From IMG/VR virus record IMGVR_UViG_3300042569_000264, positions 1 through 28,838 of that record: 28,838 nucleotides of DNA; one strand, written 5' to 3'. The notes below the pieces were generated by a model. It had not been told where the DNA came from. It saw nothing but the letters and a program-made list of their open reading frames with translations, and did not search any database. Below are positions 188-15,112 of this stretch, in pieces (the first letter of the stretch is position 1; each line of letters starts with the position of its first letter). The position numbers and the translations under genes are program-made. This DNA comes from a virus.

Positions 188-532
188 TTACTTCTTGTCG
201 TTGCGGACGTTCCACCATGTCTGGAAGCCGATGAAGGCTCCGACGATGGAAGTCATGGCGATGTAGAACATGTCAATGATGCCGCTCAGTGCCTCAATGC
301 GAGTGACGTCCACGTAGAACACCAAGAAACCCGTGATGACGAGCATGGCAAGGAGCGAAAGCCATGCCATGCGGCGTCGGTTCGTCCATTGCTTTGAACG
401 GTCGTCGATTGGACGCTCCGTCTCTTTGGTCTCTACCTTGACTTCCTTGCGTGGTGGTTCTGTACCGATGCCGTCATACGTCGGCTGGTTCTCCCACTGC
501 TCGGTGTCAGGACTGTCTACTCTGTTAGGCAT
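188..532 (-). CDS. Small two-helix membrane protein (holin-like candidate)
   Basis: A 114-residue protein. Residues 1-50 are hydrophilic and acidic/polar. A basic patch (NRRR, 51-54) leads into a first hydrophobic helix at about 56-74 (AWLSLLAMLVITGFLVFYV), and a second follows at about 84-104 (IIDMFYIAMTSIVGAFIGF). The C-terminus is short and charged (NVRNDKK). By the positive-inside rule both ends would face the cytoplasm. Two closely spaced helices in a protein of this size fit a class II-type holin or a small virion-associated membrane protein. I do not recognise a specific family. Its start overlaps the end of the preceding 58-residue ORF by 8 bp, and its stop is 3 bp before the next start, so it is part of the tail operon and not an obvious lysis cassette. 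No endolysin is adjacent in the window. Confidence 0.75.
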   Translation of the reverse strand: MPNRVDSPDTEQWENQPTYDGIGTEPPRKEVKVETKETERPIDDRSKQWTNRRRMAWLSLLAMLVITGFLVFYVDVTRIEALSGIIDMFYIAMTSIVGAFIGFQTWWNVRNDKK

Positions 533-701
533 TTTTCTTTGCGCGCTCGGCTTCTTCTTTCAGGTGCTGAATGAGCAGAGACACGTAGATGTCACGCTCG
601 TATGGCAACCACTCTTCGATGGACGTCAGTTGATATCCGTGGTGCTGCTGAAGCGCGAAGACCGTCTTGTACCAGGAGGCGAGATCGAAGTATCCCACCA
701 T
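525..701 (-). CDS. 58-residue gp51/chaperone-like ORF, probably expressed as a -1 frameshift extension of gp26
   Basis: From ATG at 701 the ORF reads MVGYFDLASWYKTVFALQQH and ends EERAKKNA-like (…EEAERAKKNA) at 525. It has an aromatic N-terminal half, a central LTSIEEWLPYERDIYVSLL helix and a charged tail. In my memory this resembles the short proteins found next to gp26 in T4-like marine phages and labelled baseplate hub assembly or tail assembly chaperone. The ATG overlaps the gp26 stop as TGATG and has no Shine-Dalgarno sequence upstream, only a T tract. That tract is a perfect -1 slippery heptamer in the gp26 frame, and a slip there joins this ORF to gp26 in frame through Arg-Leu. The likely product is a 291-residue gp26 fusion; a separate product from coupled re-initiation cannot be excluded. 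Confidence 0.8.
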   Translation of the reverse strand: MVGYFDLASWYKTVFALQQHHGYQLTSIEEWLPYERDIYVSLLIQHLKEEAERAKKNA

Positions 702-713
702 CAAGCGAAAAAA
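678..713 (-). promoter_or_regulatory. Programmed -1 ribosomal frameshift signal at the end of gp26
   Basis: On the minus strand the gp26 codons CAT-TTT-TTC-GCT-TGA contain T-TTT-TTC (713 to 707), an ideal X-XXY-YYZ slippery heptamer. Seven nucleotides later a hairpin can form: stem GGTGGGAT (699-692), loop ACTTCG (691-686), stem ATCTCGCC (685-678). This gives 8 base pairs including two G-U wobbles in RNA. Slippery site, 5-9 nt spacer and downstream stem are the standard parts of a bacterial/phage -1 signal. After the slip the reading frame continues CGC-TTG-ATG-GTG into the 58-codon ORF. The same arrangement is known for lambda G/GT and many tail chaperone pairs. Confidence 0.75.
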
Positions 714-1399
714 TGCTCGATACCCTGTAGCCTTCGTGATTCTTTGGTTCCGTCCTTGCGAACGTAGGATACGTCCACGTAGACCTCTGGGAAGCTGGAG
801 AAGAACGGCTCGAACTTGTCCAAGTGTGCCTTGGATAGTGAGCCAATGAACTCTTCAACTTCGGTTCGTGATGCGCTGTCGACTGGATTGACCTCTTCCT
901 TGTCGAACACTGCTTCCATGCACACGCGGAGCAGAGCGGCAGACTTCCTCTCTTCCTCTTCGGCGGCAAGGGCATCCTTGATGGTTGGGTATCGCAGAAC
1001 GACACCTACCTCGTCAGTGATCATGACAGTGCGTGCCTTCTTGTCTAGAACCTTGCTGACCTGCGCTTCGTCAAGGTTGATCTCGACGTCATACTTCTCT
1101 CCGTCATCGCCGACAATCTTGGCTTCAATGACGTTGCCGACAGACTTCGAACGGAGCGCAATGAAGAAGGCTTCTACGTCGAATGGTGTCAGCGCATGAA
1201 CATCGATCTGGTCGATGACGCAGTTGTTGATCAGCTGGCAGAAGACGTCGAAGATGGCCTTCTTGTCCAGCTTGTCCGATTGCTTTGCCATCAGTAGGAT
1301 CTTCTCATCCTTGACGGTGAACGGACGGTACTTGACCTTCTTGCCAGTCGAGGGGATGGTGAAGTCATAGAGTGGTGCGGAGATCTTTGGAAAAGCCAT
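701..1399 (-). CDS. 26: Baseplate hub subunit/assembly protein, T4 gp26 family
   Basis: A 232-residue protein (T4 gp26 is about 208). It begins MAFPKISAPLYDFTIPSTGK, followed by KVKYRPFTVKDEKILLMAKQS, which is characteristic of the T4 baseplate protein family (Pfam T4_baseplate). The middle holds the CQLINNCV and LTPFDVEAFFIALRSKSVG segments, and the C-terminal third is helical (EVEEFIGSLSKAHLDKFEPFF). The start has AGGAG seven bases upstream of the ATG. In T4, gp26 takes part in assembly of the central hub. Here it follows gp54 by a 22-bp gap and ends at a slippery TTTTTTC, so a fraction of ribosomes probably make a C-terminally extended form. That behaviour, plus position ahead of a probable tape measure, suggests a tail-assembly chaperone role analogous to lambda G/GT. 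Confidence 0.85.
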   Translation of the reverse strand: MAFPKISAPLYDFTIPSTGKKVKYRPFTVKDEKILLMAKQSDKLDKKAIFDVFCQLINNCVIDQIDVHALTPFDVEAFFIALRSKSVGNVIEAKIVGDDGEKYDVEINLDEAQVSKVLDKKARTVMITDEVGVVLRYPTIKDALAAEEEERKSAALLRVCMEAVFDKEEVNPVDSASRTEVEEFIGSLSKAHLDKFEPFFSSFPEVYVDVSYVRKDGTKESRRLQGIEHFFA

Positions 1400-1421: not shown

Positions 1422-2441
1422 TCATGGAAAGCGGAAGCCGTTCTGAATGTTTCTCAGTTGGCTGCGAACTCCCACAAGGTTAGAGTTGATCGTGTTCTGC
1501 AGATTGTTGTTATTGGATCGCAGTGTAGTTAGCCCGCTCGCGATAGAATTGGCGCGGGAGATGGTGTTGAGTAGGCGCTGGACTGGTACGGCAGACAGGA
1601 TCTTGTTCATCAGACCATTCAGGCCGAACGTGATCGACGATAGCTGCTCGCGGAAGCTCCCAGCGAGGTCGTTGGACGTACCGTATCCTGTGTAGTCGAG
1701 CGACGACAAAGCGTCTACCCTGAAGCCAGATTCAATCGGGTTCGGCAGGCGACCAGAGTTGAACGCACGACCGAATGGGTTGAACGAAATGCCGAACGGT
1801 GGTGTCGGTGGGACGCTTGGAACCTGAATCGGGTTGCTGACCGTGAAGTTGGTGAAGTTCACGAACTCATCAACGAGTTCGATCGTGTAGGCGCGATACT
1901 CAAACGTGACTGGGAGGACTTGCAACTGAGGATCGTCCCAAGACAACTCCATCGAACCGACATTGATAGGGAAGGCATCGTGCAGCGTGATGATCGCGAT
2001 CTTAGAGTTCTCGGTGTACTGGGCGATCTTGATCTCCGCCTTGATGTCATCGTAATAGCGAACCTCTCCGTCATACGCACCATTGAATGCTTTGTCGGTG
2101 CGGTTGATCATTGGTGAGATCGACTTGATCCATGCAGTGAAGAAGTCCACCGCATCCATCTTGGCGTCCACATAGAAGCTCATGTTGATGCTGTCGTGAA
2201 TCGCACCATATGGCATCTTCATTACAGAGCCGACACCATACGGACGCACATCGTCCGTCATGATACCGTATGAAGGCGTCTGAGAAGAACGACACAAGAA
2301 CGCCATCTTGCGAGACTTTTGCTGGGCGTCGCCATTGGTCAGGCATCGTGGTGGACTGAATGTCACCATGAAGTTGGATGTCTTAACGAGGCCGTCGCGT
2401 AGTGCTTCGGCCTTGAACGCTTCGACGTTGAAAGCAGTCAT
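1422..2441 (-). CDS. 54: Baseplate-tail tube initiator, gp54-like
   Basis: A 339-residue protein, close to T4 gp54 (about 320). The N-terminal two-thirds looks like a tail-tube fold: FMVTFSPPRCL near residue 25, then FLCRSSQTPSYGI, a DDVRPYGVG turn, INMSFYVDAKMDAVDFFTAW (the conserved D....F..W pattern of gp19-like tube proteins), DIKAEIKIAQYTENSKI and LHDAFPINVGSMELSWD, ending with an LPVTFEYRAYT strand. The last 130 residues are Asn/Ser-rich and helical and would be the gp54-specific extension. In T4, gp54 binds the finished baseplate and nucleates tube polymerisation together with gp48. The start codon overlaps the upstream stop as TAATG. A plain tube protein is less likely because of the length and the baseplate context. 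Confidence 0.75.
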   Translation of the reverse strand: MTAFNVEAFKAEALRDGLVKTSNFMVTFSPPRCLTNGDAQQKSRKMAFLCRSSQTPSYGIMTDDVRPYGVGSVMKMPYGAIHDSINMSFYVDAKMDAVDFFTAWIKSISPMINRTDKAFNGAYDGEVRYYDDIKAEIKIAQYTENSKIAIITLHDAFPINVGSMELSWDDPQLQVLPVTFEYRAYTIELVDEFVNFTNFTVSNPIQVPSVPPTPPFGISFNPFGRAFNSGRLPNPIESGFRVDALSSLDYTGYGTSNDLAGSFREQLSSITFGLNGLMNKILSAVPVQRLLNTISRANSIASGLTTLRSNNNNLQNTINSNLVGVRSQLRNIQNGFRFP

Positions 2442-3040: not shown

Positions 3041-3480
3041 TACTTGTGTCCTCGAATCTCTTTCTCGGTCAGGATTTGGAAGGTCCAATTGCGATCGGCG
3101 CAATACTCTTCCGCAGCGGCCCACTTCGCGGAGTTCTTACCCCATGTGAGCACTTCATTTAGATAGCGCCTCGTTCTGCGTTTCGGCGGCTTCGGTTCTT
3201 TGGTCTGTGCATACGGCTTCACTTCGATCATGACGGTCTTGGTCGTGCCGTCTGGTGCCTTCTTCTGGATGACGAAGTCGGGGAAGTAACGGTGCATCTT
3301 ATTGTCGGTCGGGCAGCGGTACGGCACGATGACCTCTTCGCTCGCCCACTTGATGATGTCTGGGTGTTCGTCGAACGTCTTCATCAGCGTGAGCTCAAGG
3401 CTCGAACGGTAGATGATCTTCGTCGGATCCCCAGCGTACTTGCGAGGGTTCTTCGGGGTGAATTTGCCTTTCCAAGCCAT
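3040..3480 (-). CDS. 4: Head completion protein gp4 (TnsA-like nuclease fold)
   Basis: A 146-residue protein, almost the length of T4 gp4 (about 150). It begins [19 protein letters not shown], then IIYRSSLELTLMKTFDEHP, the conserved opening of this family. A PD-(D/E)xK nuclease signature is visible: Glu29 in the N-terminal helix, Asp68 in YFPDF, and Glu86-x-Lys88 in MIEVKP, followed by basic KPPKRRTRR. In T4, gp4 acts in head completion, after DNA packaging and before the tail joins. The fold resembles the TnsA transposase endonuclease. Start and stop overlap the flanking genes as TAATG on both sides, so its translation is probably coupled to the homing endonuclease upstream. Confidence 0.9.
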   Translation of the reverse strand: MAWKGKFTPKNPRKYAGDPTKIIYRSSLELTLMKTFDEHPDIIKWASEEVIVPYRCPTDNKMHRYFPDFVIQKKAPDGTTKTVMIEVKPYAQTKEPKPPKRRTRRYLNEVLTWGKNSAKWAAAEEYCADRNWTFQILTEKEIRGHK

Positions 3481-4064
3481 TACTGATTCTTCGCCCTTTG
3501 TCTGATGGCGGCTTCGCGCAGCTTTGCTTTCGTCTCTTCAGACAGCGGTTTTCTCTTCCTACCTTTCATCGCTTCGCTCAGCTTTGCTTTGTGTTCTGCA
3601 GACTTCGGCTGTCCCTTCTTACCCTTGAGCTTCTCAGAAATCTTCGCCCTTGTTTCTTCACTTGGAGACTTACCCTTCCGAGATTCACTCATCTTAGCTC
3701 TAGTCTCCTCAGACCGCGTCTTCCCTCGCATATTCGCTTTGGCCTCTTCAGAGCGCGGCTTGCCCTTTCTGGCCGTCGACATCTTCCTTCGAATCCACCC
3801 GAATCGTTTGTTGTTTGGTCTGTTTCCACCCAGATTCATACTCATCATGTGAACCGCCCATACCAACTTTGAGTTCTCTGGATACATCTTGACGAGCAAC
3901 TGATGCGCCAAGAAGTGTTCTTCTGGGGTGAGTTCAACTAGGTTGAACGCGTCATCACTCCCACCCATACAACGTGGTGTGATGTGGTGTACTTCCGTGT
4001 AGCCTTCAACGATGCGAAGGCGAGCACGTTCCACGAGAGAGTTGTAGATTCGATGATAGTTCAT
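3480..4064 (-). CDS. Free-standing HNH homing endonuclease with NUMOD3 repeats
   Basis: A 194-residue protein. The HNH nuclease core lies at residues 22-55: [15 protein letters not shown] with His26-His27, Asn41 in FNLVELT, then [10 protein letters not shown] with His50 and His54. From about residue 97 to 185 there are five tandem NUMOD3-type DNA-binding repeats built on S-E-E-T/A-K/R-A-K-hydrophobic and K-G-K (for example [15 protein letters not shown] and [12 protein letters not shown]). This is the layout of phage homing endonucleases. No intron or intein is seen around it. It is the first gene of the leftward operon, starts 25 nt from a promoter-like CTAAGTA, and ends TAATG-coupled to gp4. 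Its start has no clear Shine-Dalgarno sequence. It is probably a selfish insertion that has taken over the operon's leader position. Confidence 0.92.
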
Positions 4065-12625: not shown

Positions 12626-15112
12626 ATGGCGCGTAAGAAGTTTCGCCTTCGAGTCAAGAAGGGCACGTTCATTGTAGGCCAGAAGGTGTACGACAGCATC
12701 TCCAAGATGCTCGTCGGAACCATTGTTGGACTGGAGTACACCTCCAACGACATCGCCTTCCAAGTCGATCAGGCGATCGCCACACAGCGCGTCACCTCGT
12801 TTGCGACTCTGTACAACACGCTTCGCAGCACGAGCACATCTTTCGGTACAGGTCGTTCTACCGTCCGCGATACCAGCAAGTTCACTCAGTACATCGCGTC
12901 CACGAACTTCCTGACTGGCGTTGCGACGACCACGACCTATGCAACCGCATTCGGTACGAACGCGACCACCTCTCGAAACACAGACACCAGCCGCACGACT
13001 GACATCACCACGGCATACAACACGAACACCCTGTTCGCTACGAACTATGCGACGGTGTTCCTGACGACAGTCGATACGATCAGCACGTTCGACACCGCTG
13101 CTTCTACATCTCGTTCGACTGAGACCACTGGAACGACAAACCGTATCACTGCTCTAGGGACAACGCGAGCAACTGAAACTCTGCGCGTCACGACATACGC
13201 AACAAACACCGCGTATGCGACGAACTACAACACCGCATATCTGACGCAGGTCGCGACCACGTTTGCGACCACGACTGCATTCGCAACATCTGCGACAACC
13301 TCTCGCGCCACCTCGACTTCGTTCGCAACGACGTTCGCTACATCCTTCGATACGAGCGCCGCGACCGCGACCAGCAGAACAACTTCTGGTTCGACCTCAC
13401 GCAGCACGCTGACTTCGTTTGCAACGACCTTTGCAACGACCTTTGCGACTTCGTTCAACACGACCACCACATACGACACTTCTCGTTCTACGAGTGGCTC
13501 GACGACGACGGCATTCAACACTTCGTTCCTGACTACGTTCGGAACCAGTGCTTCTACGGAAACGACCAGAGCAACCGCAACCAGCCGCTCTACGAGCACG
13601 ACAACCGCATTCAACACTCTGTTCCTTACGACTGGTTCAACTTCCAGGGCGACCACCACTTCGCGAGCAACAGATACATCACGCACTACTTCATTCCAAA
13701 CATCTGGTCTGGCTGGCGCTTCTCGAGCAACTTCTCGCGGAACATCGCGTTCGACGCTCGCTACTCGCGGTACAGATAGGACGACATCATATGGCACGAC
13801 AGTGAGCGTGGGAACCAGTCGAGACACCTCTGGAACCACGACGTATGGCACCGAAGCCATTTCGACGGTGAATGGATCCTCTCCTACAAACGAACAAGCA
13901 CAGGTCGACATCGCTTCATTTGAATCTGCTGGATATGTTCTAGTCGCGGGGCCAGAGTTCCTCGATACGACCCCAGCGCAGTGGGTTTGGACTGTACAGA
14001 GGACTTCGACGATCCAGACCTCTCGTTCCACTTCTGGAACTACTTCGTACATCACGAACTTCGTTCAAGACACGAGTGTTCAGACGTTCTTCAATACGCA
14101 ATTCCTGACGAACTTCACGTTCGTCACAGCATACAACACGTTCTACGATTCGACAGTGCTCTTCGACACCAGTCGTTCTACTTCGTTCGCAACCACGACT
14201 GCATTCGGTACGACCACGACGTTCGCAACCACGTATGACACGGCGGGCACGACATTGCGAGCAACGAACACGACCACCACGTTCAACACGACGACAGGCT
14301 TCGCAACCACGACAGCGTTCGACACCTCGGCCACGACTTCTCGAGCAACCTCGCAGGCGACATCCACTTCGATCAACACGTTCTTCCAGACCTCTGGCTC
14401 AACCCAGACCACTGGAAGTACCTCGCGCGATACGACTCAGGCTACCTCTCGAGCAACAACTACGGTCTTTGATACCAGCTTCAGCACGGTCTTCAACACG
14501 ACCACTTCGTTCCAGACCACTGGTTCAACCTCGGCATCCACGACTGGTTCTACGACCACTTCGTATGCGACCACGTTCGACACCACTCGTTCCACTGACA
14601 CTTCTGCGATCACTGGAAGCGACACCACTCGCGCAACGACTCGCGACACCAACGGAACGACATCGTTCGATACTTCGCGAAGCACGTTCTTCAACACGAC
14701 GACGGCATTCGACACGCTGTTCGCGACCATCTTCGCTACCGTGTTCAATACGGCAACCACGTTCGACACAGCATTCGCGACAACGCGCGCAACAGTTTCT
14801 GTCTTTGAAACGAACCGTGGAACAACGCTGCTGACTTCTCGTGGCACGGGAACTTCTCGCCTGACGCAAGTAAATACGACGTTCGCGACTTCCACGAACT
14901 TCTCGACGAACTACGATACGAGTGTCTTGACCAGTCGTTCGACCGATACAGGCGTTTCGACCACTCGCAACACCGACCAGTTCAACCAGACTTCGTTCGG
15001 TACGAACTACATCACCACGTACGACACGGTCGCAACTACTTCGACCGCATACGACACAAGCCTCGAAACGGGCCGAGTCACCGCATTTGACACCGACAGC
15101 AGAGTGATCTAA
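12626..15112 (+). CDS. Thr-rich tetrapeptide-repeat structural protein
   Basis: An 828-residue protein. Residues 1-50 are a basic, ordinary-looking head (MARKKFRLRVKKGTFIVGQK). Most of the rest is a repeat in which every second residue alternates between Thr and an aromatic, Arg or Gly residue, giving tetrads T-x-[F/Y/R/G]-x (for example TSFATTFATTFATSFNTTTT, or TSRSTSGTTSYIT). The alternation fits a long beta-strand or beta-solenoid with one Thr ladder. A non-repeat island interrupts it at about residues 410-460 (VNGSSPTNEQAQVDIASFES, then GPEFLDTTPAQWVWTVQRT). Similar Thr/Phe/Arg repeat proteins occur in cyanophage structural regions, as I remember, with no assigned function. It lies between the gp7-like gene and gp8, so it is probably a virion or tail-periphery protein. 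Confidence 0.85.
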   Translation: MARKKFRLRVKKGTFIVGQKVYDSISKMLVGTIVGLEYTSNDIAFQVDQAIATQRVTSFATLYNTLRSTSTSFGTGRSTVRDTSKFTQYIASTNFLTGVATTTTYATAFGTNATTSRNTDTSRTTDITTAYNTNTLFATNYATVFLTTVDTISTFDTAASTSRSTETTGTTNRITALGTTRATETLRVTTYATNTAYATNYNTAYLTQVATTFATTTAFATSATTSRATSTSFATTFATSFDTSAATATSRTTSGSTSRSTLTSFATTFATTFATSFNTTTTYDTSRSTSGSTTTAFNTSFLTTFGTSASTETTRATATSRSTSTTTAFNTLFLTTGSTSRATTTSRATDTSRTTSFQTSGLAGASRATSRGTSRSTLATRGTDRTTSYGTTVSVGTSRDTSGTTTYGTEAISTVNGSSPTNEQAQVDIASFESAGYVLVAGPEFLDTTPAQWVWTVQRTSTIQTSRSTSGTTSYITNFVQDTSVQTFFNTQFLTNFTFVTAYNTFYDSTVLFDTSRSTSFATTTAFGTTTTFATTYDTAGTTLRATNTTTTFNTTTGFATTTAFDTSATTSRATSQATSTSINTFFQTSGSTQTTGSTSRDTTQATSRATTTVFDTSFSTVFNTTTSFQTTGSTSASTTGSTTTSYATTFDTTRSTDTSAITGSDTTRATTRDTNGTTSFDTSRSTFFNTTTAFDTLFATIFATVFNTATTFDTAFATTRATVSVFETNRGTTLLTSRGTGTSRLTQVNTTFATSTNFSTNYDTSVLTSRSTDTGVSTTRNTDQFNQTSFGTNYITTYDTVATTSTAYDTSLETGRVTAFDTDSRVI

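Follow-up and report, generated by a model that had tools for sequence, protein, structure and literature searches.

The gp26 gene and the short reading frame that follows it very probably constitute a tail assembly chaperone pair of the G/GT type, the longer member of which would be produced by -1 frameshifting. The window, by which is meant the whole stretch of 28,838 nucleotides that was analysed (IMG/VR record IMGVR_UViG_3300042569_000264, positions 1 to 28,838), carries the locus on its minus strand. This assignment draws on the slip site, its reading frame, the conservation of both, an RNA element, and a fold resemblance, all of which were read from the sequence.

The gp26 gene and its -1 frame extension

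The putative short form, gp26 (TAC-N, 232 residues), is encoded by positions 701 to 1,399 (minus strand). It matches the T4_baseplate family PF12322 with an E-value of 4.9e-46 and a profile score of 157.6 bits versus a cut-off of 24.5, and it also matches phrog_150 (E 1.6e-46). The 3' end of the gene reads CAT TTT TTC GCT TGA, with the protein ending in His-Phe-Phe-Ala. Near this end lies the slippery heptamer T_TTT_TTC (707 to 713, minus strand), positioned in the X_XXY_YYZ register that simultaneous slippage needs, and the zero-frame TGA stop codon (701 to 703, minus strand) is located one codon (3 nt) past it. This is the sole in-frame T6 heptamer in the 7,875 codons scanned in the window, the genes of which use TTT and TTC in a ratio of 24:400.

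The -1 frame is open from the slip site to a stop codon at 527-525 and reads FF-RLMVGYFDL... across the junction. The gp51-like extension that it specifies (TAC-C; 525 to 707, minus strand) adds 60 residues after the Phe-Phe pair before the stop, and the predicted joined product would thus contain 231 + 60 = 291 residues. The extension matches columns 55-115 of the 121 in phrog_634, a family labelled 'baseplate hub assembly catalyst' (E 1.7e-23), as well as the C-terminal columns 231-282 of phrog_150, which are its last 52. An ATG at position 701 overlaps the gp26 stop codon (TGATG), and no Shine-Dalgarno sequence is found just before it. An earlier reading made from the letters of the DNA (the sequence-only reading) had given the same coordinates for the module as a whole (525 to 1,399) and for the heptamer, the same product lengths of 232 and 291 residues, and an extension ATG devoid of a Shine-Dalgarno sequence, and all of these were confirmed.

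The AlphaFold2 model of gp26 has a pLDDT of 93. Its best match in VIA-align is the HK97 tail assembly chaperone 2ob9, with a moderate Z-score of 7.2 (the next match is at 4.5); the alignment comprises 85 residues, falls within the N-terminal 87 residues of gp26, and has an rmsd of 3.7 with 8% identity. A Foldseek search of the same model against the PDB gave no significant match. The HK97 match is taken as support and not as proof, given that a Z-score of this size can reflect a common arrangement. A helical structure is predicted for the extension, at a pLDDT of 84.5.

Immediately upstream of gp26 is a tail tube protein gene (1,422 to 2,441, minus strand; phrog_45 tail tube, E 6.4e-35; PF23849). 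The proposal in the sequence-only reading that gp26 and its extension serve as a tail chaperone gains support from the HK97 fold match, from this adjoining gene, and from the short gp26 and long gp51 copies of T4. On the other side, a small conserved ORF (188 to 532, minus strand) overlaps the end of the extension, keeps its syntenic position in relatives, and matches phrog_14936 / phrog_27150, as do its counterparts in DLP6 and phiM19. Chaperone genes of the G/GT type lie between the tail tube and tape measure genes. Here a tape measure gene would fall past the end of the window; in relatives, the long ORF past the small one shows weak tape-measure matches or else matches to endolysin families.

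Several further features of the region can be described. In DLP6 and phiM19, the counterparts of the small ORF sit between the chaperone gene and the presumed tape measure gene. The first ~200 residues of the 339-residue tail tube-like protein match tail tube families, and its long C-terminal part is unmatched. A homing endonuclease with NUMOD3 motifs (3,480 to 4,064, minus strand; phrog_655, PF07460) adjoins the gp4 head-completion gene, and an 828-residue ORF among the baseplate genes (12,626 to 15,112, plus strand) matches no PHROG family at a threshold of 1e-3.

Conservation of the slippery site

Relatives were gathered from named phages and from scans of viral contigs, using gp26 alone as the query with the junction excluded. 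When the window protein served as the single query, the viral-contig scan returned no match, and alignment queries were required. At the DNA level no likeness to the window was found among phage records, and the window locus is ~42% identical at best to those of named phages. T4, one Vibrio phage, and one Ackermannvirus were set aside for their different gene ends, leaving 166 loci with the window included.

An alignment of gp26 ends had been put forward in the sequence-only reading as a check for a conserved slippery site, and such a site was found. Of the 166 loci whose gp26 has the typical end, 166 contain T_TTT_TTN 0-9 nt before the stop codon, the commonest spacing being 3 nt (124 of 166), and in these same loci the heptamer is followed, in the -1 frame, by the conserved gp51-like extension. 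The heptamer is TTTTTTT in 88 loci, TTTTTTC in 72, TTTTTTA in five, and TTTTTTG in one. Codon usage alone yields log10 P = -48.7 for these heptamers among 93 representatives less than 60% identical to one another, the identity cut being the sole control for kinship in the statistics. As a control, the last eight codons of the other ORFs in the same loci were inspected, and a T6 site was observed in 2 of 507. The T6 site also extends to Straboviridae (Aeromonas 65, AS-zj, and Cronobacter LPCS28), Pootjesviridae (phiM9), Menderavirus, and the Delftia phage PhiW-14. The slippery signal is strongly conserved, far beyond chance.

RNA elements flanking the slip site

Following a 7-nt spacer (706-700), the RNA of the window can form an 8-bp hairpin with a 6-nt loop (678 to 699, minus strand), which is the likely stimulator; structures 5-9 nt past the slip site are common, though not universal, in G/GT-type chaperone genes. 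Its sequence, read from 699 to 678, is GGTGGGAT-ACTTCG-ATCTCGCC, and its calculated stability is -9.4 kcal/mol; stem, loop, and spacer are exactly those claimed in the sequence-only reading. When the window is varied synonymously, ~2.5% of the variants have a hairpin of equal or greater stability at the same place, and the total downstream MFE lies barely under control (z -0.7). Taken alone, the window hairpin is real but modest, and the structural case rests on the family.

For the family, the controls were protein-preserving (synonymous) variants generated for each locus. The RNA lying 3' of the slip site is more stable than these controls: the mean z is -1.9, and of the 90 loci 82% fall below control. 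The family-wide probability for the 5' base of a stem is under control at 0-6 nt and over control from 7 nt on. Compact hairpins are found in the window, in DLP6, and in the loci L097, L012, and L108; an alternative form, consisting of a 9-12 bp stem that closes a loop of ~38 nt, is observed in another set of loci. Such a long stem (at least 8 bp, in one register) is present in 20 representatives versus 2.5 expected. One pair within it, formed by the first base of a Leu codon (CTG/TTG) and the third base of a Gln codon (CAG/CAA), covaries, with 17 C-G, 10 T-A, 2 C-A, and 0 T-G combinations; both positions are synonymous (Fisher p 3e-6). RNAalifold detected no global consensus structure in an ungapped alignment of 90 loci because the stem forms differ between lineages.

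AGGG (723 to 726, minus strand), a weak Shine-Dalgarno-like element, begins 13 nt before the slippery heptamer. Pairing of the upstream RNA with the anti-Shine-Dalgarno sequence beats the protein-preserving control across the family (p 3.7e-9), and in the window it is weak, at -4.2 versus -3.8 kcal/mol for the control.

Groups that retain the extension without a T6 heptamer

The gp26 ends of two groups read ATT/GTT TTC ATT/ATC or CTT TTC/TTT and contain no T6 heptamer. One consists of the Ackermannviridae, of which Salmonella S8, Dickeya phiDP23.1, Klebsiella phi1_146021, and Serratia 2050H1 were examined. Here the extension again occupies the -1 frame with no ATG near the gp26 stop codon, and NTT_TTC_AT(T/C) precedes that stop without forming a canonical heptamer. 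The site in Serratia 2050H1 is GGTTTTC, the slip sequence of T7 gene 10. In the second group, composed of the Vibrio phages K355, K452, and D524 (L090, L173, and L177), the extension lies in the -1 frame from a TAATG, and these phages may have switched to reinitiation.

The chances appear evenly balanced for a broader proposal, namely that the ratio of the two forms across T4-type phages is set by a three-part signal, complemented by a non-canonical route to the long form in the heptamer-less Ackermannviridae and Vibrio group. The parts, to which the same even weight is attached, would be the Shine-Dalgarno-like element ~13 nt upstream, T_TTT_TTN itself, and a stem 7 nt downstream. It is equally a matter of balance whether, within that signal, the form of the stem varies by lineage while the 7-nt spacing is kept.

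Alternative routes to the extension

The -1 frameshift advanced in the sequence-only reading is supported by the universal slip site, the constant -1 frame, the start-less relatives, and the selected RNA structure. If the extension were instead an independent small gp51 arising by termination-reinitiation at TGATG, two separate proteins would result, and the overlap in the window, the presence in 24 of 90 representatives of an ATG no more than 5 nt from the stop codon of gp26, and the separate 'baseplate hub assembly catalyst' listed in most database records are all in keeping with this. However, ATG, GTG, and TTG are absent from the first 15 codons of the extension in 39 of the 90 representatives, despite the fact that conserved residues already occur within these codons (as judged from an alignment of 51 extensions), and therefore restarting cannot make the extension there; ATG alone is missing from the first 15 codons past the slip site in 57 of 90. 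Reinitiation likewise leaves the invariant T_TTT_TTN and the structure spaced 7 nt from it unexplained, and T4 gp51 has the extension domain fused to a gp26-like domain. An exclusively separate gp51 is thus considered highly improbable. Less so, albeit still unlikely, is the synthesis of some free gp51 through coupling alongside the fusion, which would lead to three products where the ATG is kept. Some lineages, that of the window among them, do have a start codon close to the stop codon of gp26, but ATG 701 is not preceded by a Shine-Dalgarno sequence, and the ATG is not conserved.

Frameshifting on the ribosome is also preferred over stuttering of the polymerase on the T tract, a route to the fusion that we judge to be even more improbable than reinitiation. 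Although a run of six to seven T residues could in principle slip, the X_XXY_YYZ register is always kept and a structure 7 nt downstream is selected, neither of which a polymerase needs, and the run in the window comprises just six T residues. The same tract might be regarded as a chance occurrence, or as a sequencing error splitting a single gp26-gp51 gene, inasmuch as homopolymer runs are generally error-prone. That reading is already refuted by the recurrence of the identical layout in 166 loci, which come from numerous phages and metagenomes and include complete isolate genomes, and its probability is negligible.

Proposed mechanism and its significance

In the mechanism that we infer, which extends to the occurrence and rate of frameshifting and to the binding partners, most ribosomes would stop at the gp26 TGA and release the short form of 232 residues. 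A minority of them, holding tRNA-Phe at the TTT and TTC codons of T_TTT_TTC and paused by the RNA structure 7 nt downstream, would slip back one base, bypass the stop codon, and continue through the helical, gp51-like domain of 60 residues to give the 291-residue protein. If lambda is a guide, the short form may cover the tape measure protein in many copies, and the less abundant long form may recruit tail tube subunits.

The loci support the assignment of T4 gp26 and gp51, for years described as hub proteins with no clear function, as short and long tail assembly chaperones, a pair that most relatives would obtain by frameshifting and that T4 encodes in two genes. Conservation of the RNA signal provides natural variants for measuring the effects of spacing and stem form on the ratio of short to long protein. 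Many database records annotate half of the fusion protein as a separate 'gp51'. Records of T4-like phages such as L001, L003, and L004 list the -1 extension as a 'baseplate hub assembly catalyst' gene in its own right, and the start codons assigned to it lack conservation. The abstract of the 2022 report by Vladimirov and coworkers is said to name T4 genes 26 and 51.

Comparison with known systems

A 2010 review places T4 gp26 and gp51 among the chaperones of hub assembly; it calls gp51 essential, gives it no known function, and notes that the particle lacks it (PMC3004832). The sequence-only reading had spoken of a 'T4-type baseplate hub gene'; its chaperone component is supported, and the label itself is misleading in light of that description. 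A 2016 review treats the G-T frameshift as a conserved trait of long-tailed phages 'except T4' (PMC5009743). According to two citing papers (PMC12846349 and PMC10885494), Vladimirov, Gautam & Davidson put forward in 2022 that T4-like phages carry frameshifted genes for tail assembly chaperones; from that work, the former paper reports poly-T slippery sites in TAC-N genes of T4-like phages and the latter separate short and long copies in some of them. As these citing accounts have it, the principle of frameshifting in T4-like phages is not new, having been proposed in 2022, and the present locus fits the frameshifting kind. In the literature searched, no experimental demonstration of frameshifting in the T4-type gp26 family was found, which agrees with a remark in the sequence-only reading.

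To the extent that the citing papers convey the 2022 work, the window locus is fundamentally alike to the kind described there. The evidence for a stimulatory RNA and the two heptamer-less groups that keep the -1 extension are possibly additional to it; the RNA-structure evidence was produced here and is perhaps already contained in that paper.

The window locus resembles lambda gpG/gpGT, chaperones that are absent from the virion (PMC5009743), in its short form, its predicted -1 frameshifted long form, and its position near the tail tube gene. It differs in its T_TTT_TTC slip sequence and in belonging to a T4-type contractile-tail phage; no sequence similarity between the window locus and lambda gpG/gpGT was found. 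Unlike the HK97 chaperone 2ob9, gp26 contains ~145 further residues that the structural match leaves uncovered. The likeness to T4 is one of family, in that PF12322 is present in both gp26 and gp51 and the extension family in gp51. T4 gp51 comprises a gp26-like domain followed by the extension, whereas T4 gp26 is without it. In T4 the short and long forms are provided by two genes that are oriented divergently and lack a frameshift site, rather than by the single gene with a slippery end found in the window.
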